This document shows, piece by piece, positions 32,074 to 64,000 of a stretch of DNA of 64,000 nt. Source of the DNA: Prevotella sp. (GTDB taxonomy: Bacteria > Bacteroidota > Bacteroidia > Bacteroidales > Bacteroidaceae); the NCBI GenBank assembly GCA_017557185.1, contig JAFZAP010000051.1:1-64000 (forward strand), written 5' to 3'. The stretch's first letter is position 1; each line of letters begins with the position of its first letter. The translations under genes were made by a program, and so were the position numbers. The notes under the pieces are model-generated. The model did not search any database, had not been told where the DNA came from, and saw nothing but the letters and a program-made list of their open reading frames with translations.

Positions 32074-32473
32074 AGGTGGAGCTGGTGGGAGTCGAACCCA
32101 CGTCCGAACAAGGAAATCATACGCTTTCTACACGCTTATTCCAGACTTCATTTTCGAGCGACGGCAAGACCTGGACCACCAACCGGCGCCTTATCCTCTA
32201 AAGTTTCATCATTGCGTCGAGGCCCACAACGACTATTTCCGATTTTCCTGCGCCGCCGGTTCCTCAGATTCGGAACAACATCCTTGGGGCGACGTCTCGT
32301 TCCCTCACCTAGTGAAGGAATTAAGCTCGTAATCTACTGTGCTTCGATTAAGCAGCGAGAGCATACTGTGTGTTGCCAATTATTTTGTTGAAAGCTCAGA
32401 TTATGGTGGAAACCCTCGAGCCACCGCGTGCTTACGTACCATTTCATCTCGCCGTCAAATCCAGTCAACCCCA
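32074..32473 (-). ncRNA. ssrA: Transfer-messenger RNA
   Basis: tmRNA rescues stalled ribosomes and tags the nascent chain for proteolysis. The 5' end GGGGTTGACTGGATTTGAC and the 3' end with the T-arm GGGTTCGACTCCCACCAGC, then TCCACC, pair as the acceptor stem (32467-32473 with 32078-32084, including G-U pairs); length is about 400 nt. The tag frame (32348-32377) reads GNTQYALAA and then TAA, with the YALAA degradation signal typical of this phylum. The 3' CCA is only partly encoded (CCT), so the terminal A would be added by tRNA nucleotidyltransferase. Pseudoknot arms are not mapped base by base. The promoter is at 32511-32540 and RNase P would trim a ~30-nt 5' leader. Confidence 0.95.
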
Positions 32474-59516: not shown

Positions 59517-60317
59517 TCAGATGCCGGCACCGTCGCTGAATCCCACATGTTTGATGGGGCGCGACTGGCGAATTTGCGAATAGGGCTCTACGTCGTGTGT
59601 GATCCAGAGGTTACCACCGATGACGGAATGATGGCCGATGCGGACGCGGCCGAGTACGGACGTATTGGAATAGATGGTGACGTGGTCTTCGATGATGGGA
59701 TGACGGGGCAGGTTGGCAAGCCGTCCGTCGGCATCGTGCTGGAAGTTCTTCGCTCCGAGCGTAACACCCTGATACAGCATGACATGATGGCCGATGATGG
59801 TGGTGGCACCGATGACGATGCCTGTGCCGTGATCGATGCCAAACGAGGCTCCGATGCTCGCGGCAGGATGGATGTCGATGCCCGTGAGCGAGTGGGCGCG
59901 CTCGGTGATCATTCGTGGCAGTAACGGCAGTCCCAGCTTGTGTAGCGCATGTGCCACACGATAGTGCAACATCACTGTGATGGCGGGATAGCAGCTAATG
60001 ACCTCGAGGCGTGAGTCGACGGCGGGGTCGTTGTCGGTGATAGCATCGACATCAGTGGTGAGCAGGCGGTCGATCTCCGGCAGCTGGCTCATAAACTCCC
60101 CGACAATCGCCTGGGCACGTTGTTCCATTGACTCGGTAGTGTCTTGGCTGCATGCCGTGAGAACCTTGAGTGCATGCTTCTCTAAAAGCATGGCAATGTG
60201 TTGATGATTGTGTTGCCGAGCCATAGCGTCTTGCTGCCCGTAGACCGTGGGGAACATGGCCTCGCGCAACAAGCCCATCAGCTCGTCGAAATCCTGCAAA
60301 GTGGGGAGGGGAAGCAT
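59517..60317 (-). CDS. cysE: Serine O-acetyltransferase
   Basis: A 266-residue enzyme making O-acetyl-L-serine from L-serine and acetyl-CoA, the first committed step of cysteine synthesis. Residues ~1-130 are the helical N-terminal domain. The left-handed beta-helix (hexapeptide repeats) follows with GIDIHPAASIGASFGIDHG (catalytic Asp and His), GVTLGAKN, RHPIIEDHVTIYSNTSVLG and HHSVIGGNLWITHDV. The C-terminal tail (IRQSRPIKHVGFSDGAGI) is the part that usually binds CysK. It lies 39 bases after cysK in the trpB2-cysK-cysE operon. Confidence 0.9.
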   Translation of the reverse strand: MLPLPTLQDFDELMGLLREAMFPTVYGQQDAMARQHNHQHIAMLLEKHALKVLTACSQDTTESMEQRAQAIVGEFMSQLPEIDRLLTTDVDAITDNDPAVDSRLEVISCYPAITVMLHYRVAHALHKLGLPLLPRMITERAHSLTGIDIHPAASIGASFGIDHGTGIVIGATTIIGHHVMLYQGVTLGAKNFQHDADGRLANLPRHPIIEDHVTIYSNTSVLGRVRIGHHSVIGGNLWITHDVEPYSQIRQSRPIKHVGFSDGAGI

Positions 60318-60356: not shown

Positions 60357-61271
60357 CTAAAACAGGCCGGTGGAGAGATAGCGCTCGCCGGTGTCAGGCA
60401 GCAGAACAACGATGGTCTTGCCGGCATTCTCGGGCAGTCGTGACAACCGCAGGGCAGCAGCATAGGCGGCTCCCGACGAGATGCCGGCCAGCAATCCGTT
60501 GTCGCGCGCCAGCAGACGGGCATGCTCCTTGGCGTCATCATTGCTCACGGTGAGCACTTCGTCGACGACTGTAGCATCGTAATTATCGGGAACGAAGCCG
60601 GCACCGATGCCTTGAATGGCGTGCTTGCCGGCGATGCCAGTGGAGAGCACTGCCGACGACAACGGCTCTACTGCCACCGCCTTCACGGCTGCCTTGTGCT
60701 TCTTCAGCGCCCGCGCGGTGCCACTCAGCGTGCCGCCGGTGCCCACGCCAGCCACGAAAATATCGACGCTGCCATCGGTGTCGGCCCATATCTCCTCGCC
60801 GGTGGTGCGTTCATGGACTGCCGGGTTGGCGGGATTCACGAACTGTCCCAGAATCACCGCATCGGGAATCTGCTGCTGCAGCTCAGTGGCTTTGGCGATA
60901 GCGCCCTTCATGCCTTCACTTCCGGGTGTCAGCACGAGTTCTGCGCCATAGGCTTTCAACAGATTCCGGCGTTCTTCGCTCATGCTGTCGGGCATCGTCA
61001 GAATGACACGATAGCCCATCACGGTGCCCACCCAGGCCAGTCCGATACCGGTATTGCCGCTGGTGGGCTCGATGATCGTGGCACCAGCGTTGAGGACGCC
61101 CCGTTGCCGGGCATCCTCAATCATGGCTAATGCTATGCGATCCTTCACACTGCCACCGGGGTTCTGGCATTCCAGCTTTGCAACGATGGTGGCTTGCTGG
61201 CCTTCCTGCTGCTGCAGTCGCAACAGCGGTGTGTGGCCGATCAGTTCTGTGAGACGATTGCTGATTCTCAT
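60357..61271 (-). CDS. cysK: Cysteine synthase A
   Basis: A 304-residue PLP enzyme making cysteine from O-acetylserine and sulfide. [15 protein letters not shown]-type context holds K43, the PLP lysine; [14 protein letters not shown] binds the carboxylate; [16 protein letters not shown] binds the phosphate of PLP; PEN AGK at the end closes the fold. Start ATG 61271 ([16 protein letters not shown]) matches the family better than the ATG two codons upstream. It begins 13 bases after trpB2 and precedes cysE, so the operon joins two serine-consuming PLP enzymes with the acetyltransferase that feeds CysK. Confidence 0.93.
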
Positions 61272-61284
61272 TATCAATTTTCAA

Positions 61285-62640
61285 TTACTGTGGTACGCTC
61301 TTGAGGTTCTCCTTGATATCGGAATCGGAGAGCTGGTAGTTCATCAGATCACCGTTGAGGAACTGCTCGTAGGCGGTCATGTCGATGAGTCCGTGACCGG
61401 AGAGGTTGAAGAGGATGACCTTCTCCTCGCCTGTCTCCTTGCACTTCTCAGCCTCGCGAATAGCTGCGGCGATAGCGTGGCTCGACTCGGGAGCGGGGAT
61501 GATGCCCTCAGTGCGGGCGAAGAGCATACCTGCCTCGAAGGTCTCAAGCTGCGGGATGTCGACACCGTGCATCAGGCCGTCCTTGATGAGCTGTGAGACA
61601 ATCATGCCGGCACCGTGATAGCGGAGACCGCCAGCGTGGATGTTGGCAGGCTTGAAGCCATGACCCAGCGTGTACATCGGTAGCAGGGGCGTGTAGCCGG
61701 CCTCGTCGCCGAAGTCGTAGCGGAACTCGCCGCGTGTGAGCTTCGGACAGCTCTCGGGCTCGGCAGCGATGAACTCCGTCTTCTTTCCGTCGAGGATGTT
61801 GTGGCGCATGAAGGGGAAGGCGATGCCGCCGAAGTTCGAACCACCACCGAAGCAGGCGATGACGACGTCGGGATATTCGCCGGCTTTCTCCATCTGCTTC
61901 TCTGCCTCAAGGCCGATAATCGACTGATGGATGGCCACGTGGTTGAGCACCGAGCCCAGCGTGTACTTACAGTTCGGCGTGGTGGTAGCGAGCTCTACGG
62001 CCTCACTGATGGCTGTGCCGAGCGAACCGGGATGACGCGGATCGCGGGTGATGATATCCTTACCGGCACGTGTCGACATCGACGGCGAACCTGTTACGGC
62101 AGCTCCGAACGTGCGCATGATGCTCGAACGGTAGGGCTTCTGCTGCATCGAGATCTTCACCTGATAGACGGCAGCCTCCAGGCCAAACACCGAGGCGGCA
62201 TAGCTCAGGGCGGCACCCCACTGGCCGGCACCCGTCTCAGTGGTGACGTTGGTGGTGCCTTCCATCTTGGCATAGTAGCACTGCGGCAGAGCGGAGTTGA
62301 TCTTATGCGAGCCCAGCGGGTTCACGCTCTCGTTCTTGAAGTAGATGTGGGCAGGTGTTCCCAGTGCCTCCTCCAGCGCGTAGGCACGCACCAGCGGTGT
62401 TGAACGATAGTACTTGTACTTCTCCAACACCTCTTCGGGGATGGGGATGAACGCATGTTCCTGGTCGAGTTCCTGCACACAACACTCACGCGGGAAGATG
62501 TGGGCGAGATCGTCTACGCCGAGCGGCTGCTTCGTAGCGGGATGAATAGGCGGCATCGGCTTGTTGGGCATGTCGGCCTGAATGTTGTACCATGCTGTGG
62601 GCAGCTCATTTTCCTGAAGGATAAATCTTTTCTGTTTCAT
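61285..62640 (-). CDS. trpB: Tryptophan synthase beta chain, type 2 (TrpB2)
   Basis: A 451-residue PLP enzyme condensing indole with serine to give tryptophan, of the longer TrpB2 type that works without the usual alpha-subunit partner. Marks are the extended N-terminus (WYNIQADMPNKPMPPIHP), RSTPLVRAYALEEAL, NESVNPLGSHKINSALPQ with PLP-binding K113, TTETGAGQWGAAL, CFGGGSNFGGIA and HGLIDMTAYEQF. No other trp gene is in the window. It is the first gene of trpB2-cysK-cysE and is preceded by a 260-base leader with promoter, a Trp/Cys-rich peptide and a terminator. TrpB2 may recycle indole or salvage it from neighbours (inference). Confidence 0.93.
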   Translation of the reverse strand: MKQKRFILQENELPTAWYNIQADMPNKPMPPIHPATKQPLGVDDLAHIFPRECCVQELDQEHAFIPIPEEVLEKYKYYRSTPLVRAYALEEALGTPAHIYFKNESVNPLGSHKINSALPQCYYAKMEGTTNVTTETGAGQWGAALSYAASVFGLEAAVYQVKISMQQKPYRSSIMRTFGAAVTGSPSMSTRAGKDIITRDPRHPGSLGTAISEAVELATTTPNCKYTLGSVLNHVAIHQSIIGLEAEKQMEKAGEYPDVVIACFGGGSNFGGIAFPFMRHNILDGKKTEFIAAEPESCPKLTRGEFRYDFGDEAGYTPLLPMYTLGHGFKPANIHAGGLRYHGAGMIVSQLIKDGLMHGVDIPQLETFEAGMLFARTEGIIPAPESSHAIAAAIREAEKCKETGEEKVILFNLSGHGLIDMTAYEQFLNGDLMNYQLSDSDIKENLKSVPQ

Positions 62641-62732
62641 ACTGTTTAAAAGTTTTATGGTTGAATTGTTATTTGCGTTGGATGATCACTTAACCATTTT
62701 CCATTATCCATTTTGCATTTTCCAATGAAAGG

Positions 62733-62766
62733 AAAAGGGCCTGTCGTAAGAACGGCAGACCCTTTT
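62733..62766 (-). terminator. Leader terminator (attenuator) of trpB2-cysK-cysE
   Basis: On the minus strand AAAAGGGTCTGCCGTT pairs with ACGACAGGCCCTTTT around a TCTT-centred loop: about 14 pairs, including one G-U and with one mismatch. It lies 93 bases before the trpB2 ATG and 34 bases after the leader-peptide stop. The 3' arm (62743-62750) can instead pair with 62800-62807. Confidence 0.85.
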
Positions 62767-62807
62767 GATGGTTATGTAATACTCCACACGGTCAAGCGAC
62801 TCACGAC
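62743..62807 (-). promoter_or_regulatory. Antiterminator pairing in the trpB2 leader
   Basis: GTCGTGAG (62800-62807, overlapping the leader stop codon TGA) is complementary over 8 positions, one a G-U pair, to CTTACGAC (62743-62750) in the loop and 3' arm of the terminator. The two pairings exclude each other, as in classical attenuators. Confidence 0.75.
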
Positions 62808-62851
62808 TTTTCAGATCTTGAGCAACGCCAGCACCAACATGTAGCATTCAT
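62801..62851 (-). CDS. Leader peptide rich in Trp, Cys and Ser codons
   Basis: A 16-codon frame, MNATCWCWRCSRSEKS then TGA, starts at ATG 62849-62851; an in-frame ATG at 62858-62860 would add MIT. It begins about 30 bases after the promoter and ends 34 bases before the terminator hairpin. Cys-Trp-Cys-Trp-Arg-Cys-Ser-Arg-Ser gives two Trp, three Cys and three Ser codons in sixteen, exactly the amino acids made or used by the downstream TrpB2, CysK and CysE. Ribosome stalling here would free 62800-62807 for the antiterminator; ribosomes reaching the stop codon would cover it. A tryptophan leader peptide upstream of trp genes in Bacteroidota is consistent with the known Bacteroid-trp RNA motif; the cysteine part is new to me. 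Confidence 0.75.
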   Translation of the reverse strand: MNATCWCWRCSRSEKS

Positions 62852-62886
62852 TGTAATCATATTCGTTGTATTTTTGATAACGGTGG

Positions 62887-62918
62887 CAAAATTATAACAT
62901 TTTCCCGAATCCACCAAA
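62887..62918 (-). promoter_or_regulatory. Promoter of the trpB2-cysK-cysE leader
   Basis: TTTG (62915-62918), 20 bases, TAATTTTG (62887-62894): full consensus. Transcription would start near 62880. Confidence 0.8.
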
Positions 62919-63041: not shown

Positions 63042-64000
63042 TTACCACCCCTCGTGTTGTTTCAGTTGCGGATTGCTGTCGATTTCGTCAGTCGGAATCG
63101 GCCACTTGTAGTCGCGCTCGCCATTATAGACACGCGTCTCGTAAGCCAGACCATAGGTGATGCGCTCATTGTTCACGGCATCAATGGCTTCCTTGAGCTG
63201 GTGCCAGCGATACTCGTCGTAGAGACGCAGACCCTCGAAGGCCAACTCGACGCGGCGTTCATGCTTGATGACCTTCAGCAGCTGGTCCTTGCTCAGACCC
63301 GTTCCCTCTACGTCTTCAACCTTCGGCATGCCTACACGCTGGCGCAGCTGATTGACGAGTCCAAGAACTGTCGACTCGTTGTAGCCGCCCTTCTCGACGA
63401 GAGCCTCGGCTAACGAGATCAGCACCTCGGGATAGCGAACCACGTAGAAATCCTGTCCGTTGTCCCACGAATTACCTGTGTCGGTAGGATCGAAGTACTT
63501 CATGACATAGATCGTGGAGAGCGATGCGGCAGCCCCTCCATAGGGAGCCTCAGCTCCACCACGCCCGTTCCAGTACATGCCAGGCACGAAGAGTGTGGCA
63601 TAGAGACGCGGGTCGCGGCCTACCCAGTAGTCGAAGTTCGGCTGGTCCACATTGAGCGAGCCATTATCCTTCTTGGCTGCATAGTCGTGCTCGGTGGCAG
63701 GCTTACCATCCAGACGATAGTAGTCGTCGGCGAGGTTCAGCGTACCGTTCATTGCTTCGAGCGGTGTGTTCCAGTGTGCATTGAACTGTGTTCCCTCGTC
63801 GAGTCCGGGGCCTTCGAAGCGTACGGCGAAGATAATCTCCGACTCCTTCTCGCCAGCAGGCGTGAAGAGCTTACCATAATCAGCAGCGAGCGTGTAGCCC
63901 AACTTCATGACTTCCTGATAAGCGCTGATGGCCTCGTCCCACATCTTATTATAAAGAGCCAGTCGGCCCAGCAGAGCGTAGCAGGCACCACGCGTGATGC
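63042..64000 (-). CDS. SusD/RagB-family outer-membrane lipoprotein, 5'-truncated by the window
   Basis: The frame is open to the window edge (reading ITRGACYALLGRLALYNKMWDEAI from the right end), so the signal peptide and N-terminal TPR part lie outside. The visible 318 residues are the SusD C-terminal region: GRLALYNKMWDEAISAYQE (the end of the TPR-like helices), YWVGRDPRLYATLF, DFYVVRYPEVLISLAEALVEKGG and VIKHERRVELAFEGLRLYDEYRW, ending in IPTDEIDSNPQLKQHEGW. SusD proteins cover a SusC transporter and bind glycan at the cell surface; a susC should lie upstream, beyond 64000. The substrate cannot be told from this part. Confidence 0.93.
   Translation of the reverse strand, partial: ITRGACYALLGRLALYNKMWDEAISAYQEVMKLGYTLAADYGKLFTPAGEKESEIIFAVRFEGPGLDEGTQFNAHWNTPLEAMNGTLNLADDYYRLDGKPATEHDYAAKKDNGSLNVDQPNFDYWVGRDPRLYATLFVPGMYWNGRGGAEAPYGGAAASLSTIYVMKYFDPTDTGNSWDNGQDFYVVRYPEVLISLAEALVEKGGYNESTVLGLVNQLRQRVGMPKVEDVEGTGLSKDQLLKVIKHERRVELAFEGLRLYDEYRWHQLKEAIDAVNNERITYGLAYETRVYNGERDYKWPIPTDEIDSNPQLKQHEGW

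Follow-up and report, generated by a model that had tools for sequence, protein, structure and literature searches.

A Trp-type leader carrying Trp and Cys codons upstream of trpB2-cysK-cysE in Prevotella sp., a probable recoded attenuator

In the 64,000-nt stretch of Prevotella sp. DNA analysed here (called the window), the genes trpB2, cysK and cysE follow one another on the minus strand, and the leader upstream of them contains a short reading frame with both Trp and Cys codons. The question raised by this locus is whether a single attenuator may answer to the supply of several amino acids, which the original prediction had proposed for tryptophan, cysteine and serine together. The comparisons reported below make it quite probable that the leader is a Bacteroid-trp-like, ribosome-mediated transcription attenuator, recoded from YWWW to CWCW (Trp plus Cys) where cysK-cysE lies in the trpB2 operon. 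The multi-amino-acid proposal is retained for Trp and Cys and abandoned for Ser.

The operon, its promoter and the leader reading frame

The gene identities that had been proposed agree with matches to NCBIfam models. trpB2, encoding a TrpB-like PLP enzyme (61285..62640, minus strand), scored 588.6 bits against TIGR01415 and 688.7 bits against NF009057, cysK (60357..61277, minus strand, with ATG 61271 as the likely start) scored 432.6 bits against TIGR01139, and the gene for a cysE-type serine O-acetyltransferase (59517..60317, minus strand) scored 147.2 bits against TIGR01172, below the cut-off of 210.65. The gaps of 13 and 39 bases are likewise as predicted, that between trpB2 and cysK being 13 nt if cysK begins at ATG 61271 and 7 nt if it begins at TTG 61277, and that between cysK and cysE being 39 nt. 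It should be noted that a second cysK, 62% identical to that of the operon, is found in the window's genome, so that the operon is not the sole source of CysK there. Within the 350 nt upstream of this second cysK lies a 44-codon frame in which five Cys codons are scattered. The genome also contains a second trpB2-like gene (L002, G000:C35:7212-8546), 54% identical to trpB2, with no Trp-type leader found upstream of it. Elsewhere in the window, an open frame upstream of the leader (63042-63998) resembles by eye the C-terminal part of a SusD/RagB-type protein, and a tmRNA gene is located at 32074-32472 on the minus strand.

The promoter claimed upstream of the leader was found by pattern matching as TTTG-N20-TAATTTTG, read from 62918 to 62887 on the minus strand (62887..62918). 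It has a -33 TTTG and a -7 TAnnTTTG element, which we take to be the promoter type known for Bacteroidota, and the same pattern occurs at most 150 nt upstream of the leader in 93 of 106 distinct leaders. The predicted frame of 16 to 19 codons is present as well. The predicted leader peptide MITMNATCWCWRCSRSEKS is encoded by 19 codons at 62801..62860 (minus strand, from ATG 62860 to TGA 62801), or by 16 if the alternative start ATG 62851 is used, and this frame is conserved in homologues. Comparison of the 106 leaders identifies codons 8-11, TGT (Cys) TGG (Trp) TGC (Cys) TGG (Trp), at 62828..62839 (minus strand) as the putative regulatory codons; two Trp and two Cys codons thus stand at these positions, with trpB2 and cysK-cysE downstream. 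The Ser codons of the window's leader are at positions 14, 16 and 19. By predicted translation, a short leader with codons for the product is conserved, in reading frame and in codons, across the 106 distinct leaders. That so many distinct homologous frames recur, and that the pairings described below hold in an alignment of 100 leaders, argues that the leader is not a product of chance.

A genus-wide leader related to Bacteroid-trp RNA

Relatives of trpB2 were collected from 200 congeneric genomes as well as named genome records, and part of them carry the same leader, usually reading (Y/N/F)WWWRxSRxKKS. A covariance model (R1) built from 18 leaders finds matches in 308 of the 398 genomes sampled from the genus; the window matches it with 3.8e-32, being itself one of the 18 rows. 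Among the R1 matches listed and read, the leader precedes trpB2, trpD (named by motif) or a different trpB sharing about 28% identity with trpB2, apart from a few other cases, and the first gene behind it was named except at L125, L186 and L218. In assembling the distinct leaders, nhmmer matches with E above 1e-15 (antisense and weak, for example L102) were dropped.

Against Bacteroid-trp RNA (RF01692), the window's leader reaches 28.8 bits, below the gathering cut-off of 49, and the model aligns with it from end to end. Nine other trp-leader loci were compared with Rfam, of which three pass the RF01692 cut-off (L135 with 59.4, L118 with 56.4 and L131 with 54.7 bits), three appear with scores under it and three are absent from the listing; the window's leader was not listed in this comparison at E 1 or better. 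As L118, L131 and L135 also match R1, they represent intermediates linking the window to the family. Judged by these alignments, the window's leader is a divergent homologue of Bacteroid-trp and not a member by score. It shares with Bacteroid-trp, a leader RNA of Bacteroidota named a tryptophan peptide leader by Rfam, the end-to-end alignment, and differs from it by the score, by the Cys codons among the Trp codons and by preceding trpB2-cysK-cysE. The family figures as a table entry in Weinberg et al. 2010 (PMC2864571). A match to Thr_leader (RF00506; 20.8 bits, gathering cut-off 55) was rejected, as were the other sub-threshold Rfam matches of the window's leader, on account of their low scores.

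Competing pairings and the proposed switch

An intrinsic terminator, composed of a hairpin and a U tract, is predicted at about 62733..62766 (minus strand; -18.6 kcal/mol folded alone) and precedes the first gene. In an alignment of 100 leaders, which left out L186, the nine loci L214-L222 and repeat loci from a genome already represented, 97.1% of the terminator cells are paired and 8 of its 13 pairs show two-sided changes. The 8-bp antiterminator pairing of 62800-62807 with 62743-62750, as claimed originally, is present, GTCGTGAG (segment 2a, 62807..62800, minus strand) being able to pair with CTTACGAC (62750..62743) of the terminator 3' arm with -11.7 kcal/mol as a duplex. The structure is, however, larger than described. 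When the nascent RNA is folded to 62743, two nested antiterminator helices are obtained, GTCGTGAG:CTTACGAC and a second in which GACC (segment 2b, 62793..62790, minus strand) pairs with GGTC (62761..62758) of the terminator 5' arm, so that parts of both terminator arms would be held before the 3' arm is complete. A pairing with the 3' arm alone was accordingly replaced by the two-helix form, on the basis of the fold and of the pair counts. Segment 2a, which holds the leader stop codon, has another partner in segment 1 (CTCAAGAT, 62815..62822, minus strand), and the resulting protector hairpin (62822..62815 with 62807..62800), lengthened by an extension using a UGG codon, is conserved, the arm having 95.4% of cells paired in the 100 leaders; this hairpin was absent from the original prediction.

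The stored structure of the whole leader shows 105 two-sided cells in the 100 leaders, mainly in the terminator, compared to 30.5 in shuffles, the alignment having been fitted to the stored structure of R1, which favours that structure. The antiterminator, which is absent from the R1 model, has 95.6% of cells paired over 11 counted pairs, and 12 two-sided cells compared to 3.1 in shuffles; it pairs far better than slid versions of itself. The 11 pairs were taken from 14 candidates, leaving out L001 positions 66, 67 and 71, at which one side is variable, and the 95.6% therefore holds for the better part of the antiterminator. Two of its pairs show two-sided changes, a number reached by 107 of 500 shuffles, and the 8-bp arm is nearly invariant. 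In the 2b helix, three inner pairs were counted, with 91.3% paired and 10 two-sided GC/AU changes in one pair. The protector helix is mostly invariant and hence shows little covariation. The single-strand fold of the window's leader has a z of -2.8. At the level of the aligned sequences, the antiterminator and the terminator exclude each other by pairing, with modest covariation for the former. Regarding the compensating changes that the alignment had been expected to reveal, they are found in the terminator, whereas the antiterminator and the protector are conserved with little covariation. Both the leader frame and the antiterminator are conserved in the relatives, and the prediction was in this respect not refuted.

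Under the proposed mechanism, a lack of charged tRNA-Trp or tRNA-Cys in the cell would cause the leader ribosome to stall at codons 8-13 and thereby to block the protector hairpin (segment 1 and its extension). The freed segment 2 would then pair across the terminator, 2a binding the 3' arm and 2b the 5' arm, and RNA polymerase, once this antiterminator has formed, would read into trpB2-cysK-cysE. With both tRNAs charged, the ribosome would reach the stop codon within segment 2 and mask that segment, and the terminator would form. For a leader carrying no ribosome, the hairpin of segments 1 and 2, being the first to form, is assumed to favour termination.

Stalling was modelled by an equilibrium calculation in which the ribosome edge lies 13 nt past the start of the A-site codon. 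With the A-site at codons 8-14, the antiterminator amounts to at least 0.98 in the nascent RNA; it amounts to about 0.6 at codon 15 and to about 0 at codon 16 or later. The 'on' range of this model includes Cys 8, Trp 9, Cys 10, Trp 11 and Cys 13, and Ser 14 is the sole Ser codon inside it, Ser 16, Ser 19 and the stop codon being outside. The calculation agrees with the proposed mechanism for stalled and for completing ribosomes and not for the no-ribosome state, in which the antiterminator still amounts to 0.77. With a completed 3' arm, this equilibrium model retains no antiterminator at any stall position, which implies that the switch must be kinetic. Known attenuators are kinetic switches.

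Cys codons, cysK-cysE and the origin of the operon

Among the 106 distinct leader frames, 4 precede trpB2-cysK-cysE, namely those of the window, of RUG178 (L032), of G047 and RUI067 (L003/L033) and of G203 (L143). The other 102 have no cysK in the stretch read, which extends 1.5 kb or more past the leader except in group L186 (204 nt); cysK begins 1.5 to 2.0 kb behind the leader in the four operons, and a more distant cysK could escape this count. G324 is identical to L032 over the 2 kb compared. Codons 8-11 of the four operon leaders read CWCW in three cases and CWWW in one (G203). Cys is thus present at codon 8 in 4/4 leaders with trpB2-cysK-cysE versus 0/102 of those without cysK, and at codon 10 in 3/4 versus 1/102, the cysK-less leaders reading WWW at codons 9-11 in 92 cases, WW in 8, WRW in one and WCW in one. 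The proposal that an attenuator containing Trp and Cys codons precedes an operon for both amino acids is therefore borne out at the level of sequence, in that Cys 8 and Cys 10 track the presence of cysK-cysE. By contrast, Cys at codon 13 (in RCS), which had been counted as evidence, loses this value, since the same residue is found in 22/102 cysK-less leaders; codon 12, also within the 'on' range, is Cys in 3/102 of them. At L207:3509-3647, before trpD, WRW stands in the place of WWW. Codon 10 is unpaired in the consensus fold, so that pairing there does not explain its change.

A control within single genomes gives the same picture, the leaders of the main trp operon reading WWW in G047 (before trpD) and in G324 (before trpB) beside trpB2-cysK leaders that read CWCW; it covers these two genomes, the trp operon of the window's genome being cut by the contig end. 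In the close relative G199 the leader reads YWWW and no cysK was found in the genome at E 1e-30 or better, and at this threshold G203, G047 and G324 have one cysK each. A leader reading YWCW was found at L046 (3308-3455) without an adjacent cysK; it is followed by trpB2 and then by a dehydrogenase-like gene (named by eye), which in the window is also found after cysE, suggesting that cysK-cysE was placed between old neighbours. In G259, a CWCW leader whose frame is identical in DNA to that of L032 lies at the end of contig 178 (L248), and the contig ends within trpB2. This assembly has 6% contamination, another trpB2 (86%) and, elsewhere, only a 63% cysK, and it may be mixed. When 399 genomes of the family were searched for the leader pattern with Cys codons, as a check of specificity and not as a census, the window alone was found (1/399); these genomes overlap only partly with the 398 sampled from the genus.

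In a tree of 40 trpB2 genes, the four genes with operon leaders form one clade (support 86/87), which points to probably one fusion or acquisition and not to independent repeats. Inside it, G203 (CWWW) groups with G047 (CWCW; support 87/91), so codon 10 changed more than once or reverted. The operon clade together with its stem makes up 9% of the length of a tree of 30 leaders, and the Cys changes inside the clade give P values of 0.023 (2 of 3) or 0.0027 (3 of 4), which are based on few changes, assume equal rates and come from a test chosen after the pattern was seen.

These data bear on a simpler explanation, which we regard as unlikely, that the leader is a plain Trp attenuator in which the Cys codons arose by neutral drift and the two remaining Trp codons suffice. 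Single-base changes (TAT to TGT and TGG to TGC) would be enough for such drift, and only two Trp codons are present in 8/102 cysK-less leaders; yet apart from these eight WW deletions the cysK-less leaders deviate from WWW at codons 9-11 by one WRW and one WCW only, and codon 8 is never Cys among them. The YWCW leader of L046 and the Cys residues at codons 12 and 13 show that Cys can occur without an adjacent cysK, and the grouping of the four operon leaders in one clade would also be compatible with drift. It is nevertheless in the sole clade with cysK-cysE and no visible cysK promoter that two different codons became Cys, with CWCW in 3/4 species. Far less probable is a three-way sensor that would respond to Ser as well as to Trp and Cys. 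TrpB2 and CysE both use serine as a substrate, and Ser codons stand at positions 14, 16 and 19; in the Trp-only leaders of relatives, however, Ser is encoded at these positions too, and the codons there coincide in part with the pairing segments CTCAAGAT and GTCGTGAG. In the stall model, moreover, the antiterminator is lost when the ribosome stalls at Ser 16 or Ser 19, leaving Ser 14 alone in the 'on' range. Sensing of serine is therefore not retained.

How could a Trp leader have acquired Cys codons? cysK was detected at E 1e-120 or better in 43 of the 398 genomes. Of the best 12 loci, which were read, 4 have trpB2 upstream, and four of the other eight (L227-L234), those of G360, G172, G070 and G283, have a Cys-rich (CCC) leader attenuator; no Cys-rich leader was seen at the remaining four of these eight loci. 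In the stand-alone leaders, the hairpin and the terminator share the repeat CGCTAATC/GATTAGCG in three cases and a changed version of it in G283, and the TTTG/TAnnTTTG promoter is present at 4/4 of these loci. In G203, G324 and G047, trpB2 and cysK are separated by a Cys attenuator, and no matching promoter was found within 250 nt upstream of it (0/3). In the window this internal attenuator is gone and cysK follows trpB2 directly.

A separate Cys attenuator before cysK-cysE was read at L224, L225, L226, L227, L228, L230 and L232, where several Cys codons follow one another and the competing repeats, CGCTAATC/GATTAGCG or a changed version of them, make up the terminator as well. One folded Cys leader upstream of cysK has a z of -5.0, and no Rfam family matched the cysK Cys leader of L237, the single locus tested. 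A model of the cysK attenuator (R2), for which five of the seven leaders served as input, was matched nine times across 8 of 299 genomes, three of the matches being strong and located at cysK (G203, G070, G172) and six weak. R2 gave no match in the window's genome nor at the cysK leader of G047, whose R2 match is on another contig; G047 has a divergent internal Cys leader, which escaped a model built from the others.

The history that we favour, with somewhat less assurance than the recoding itself, is that a cysK-cysE module arrived downstream of trpB2 together with a Cys attenuator of its own and lost its promoter, that two base changes then turned the Trp attenuator into a Trp/Cys OR-gate, and that the internal Cys attenuator was subsequently lost in the window's species. 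Selection may have driven the recoding, because cysK-cysE seem promoterless in the operon. If they can be reached only through the trpB2 leader, a Trp-only leader would shut them off when Cys is lacking and Trp is present, which would give a reason for the change. That the leader is by now mainly a Cys sensor, with the Trp codons as a remnant, is very improbable, for although the window lost the internal Cys attenuator kept by three relatives and Cys 8 is present in 4/4 operon leaders, Trp codons 9 and 11 are kept in 4/4 and trpB2 still heads the operon.

In enteric bacteria, the leader peptides of ilvGMEDA, thr and ilvBN contain control codons for several amino acids, a feature that the recoded leader proposed here would share. 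It would differ from these enteric attenuators, which serve connected pathways, in joining the separate Trp and Cys pathways in one operon. Passages of PMC1183508 describe ilvGMEDA, thr and ilvBN as attenuated operons. With regard to Cys, uORFC-8-2, a Cys-codon leader before cysS in Rhodobacterales, is taken to act via ribosome stalling in passages of PMC8632094, and for Actinobacteria passages of PMC1262725 report Trp attenuators as well as Cys leaders without terminators, the leaders of the Mycobacterium cys operon having no conserved terminator. The window's leader is similar to the Rhodobacterales cysS and Mycobacterium cys leaders, as portrayed in these passages, in having Cys codons within a short leader frame, whereas theirs are Cys-only control codons in other phyla and the window's combine Trp and Cys. 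Further background was taken from passages of PMC4833913, PMC7366714 and PMC13236596. No Trp plus Cys attenuator appeared in literature searches limited to open-licence PMC papers.

Taken together, if the proposed reading is true, the leader would be an attenuator joining tryptophan and cysteine supply and, as an OR-gate, would place two separate pathways under one combined leader. Its sensory input would have been rewired by one or two base changes after the fusion of an operon, and ancestral-type, intermediate and derived forms of this leader would be alive in related species.
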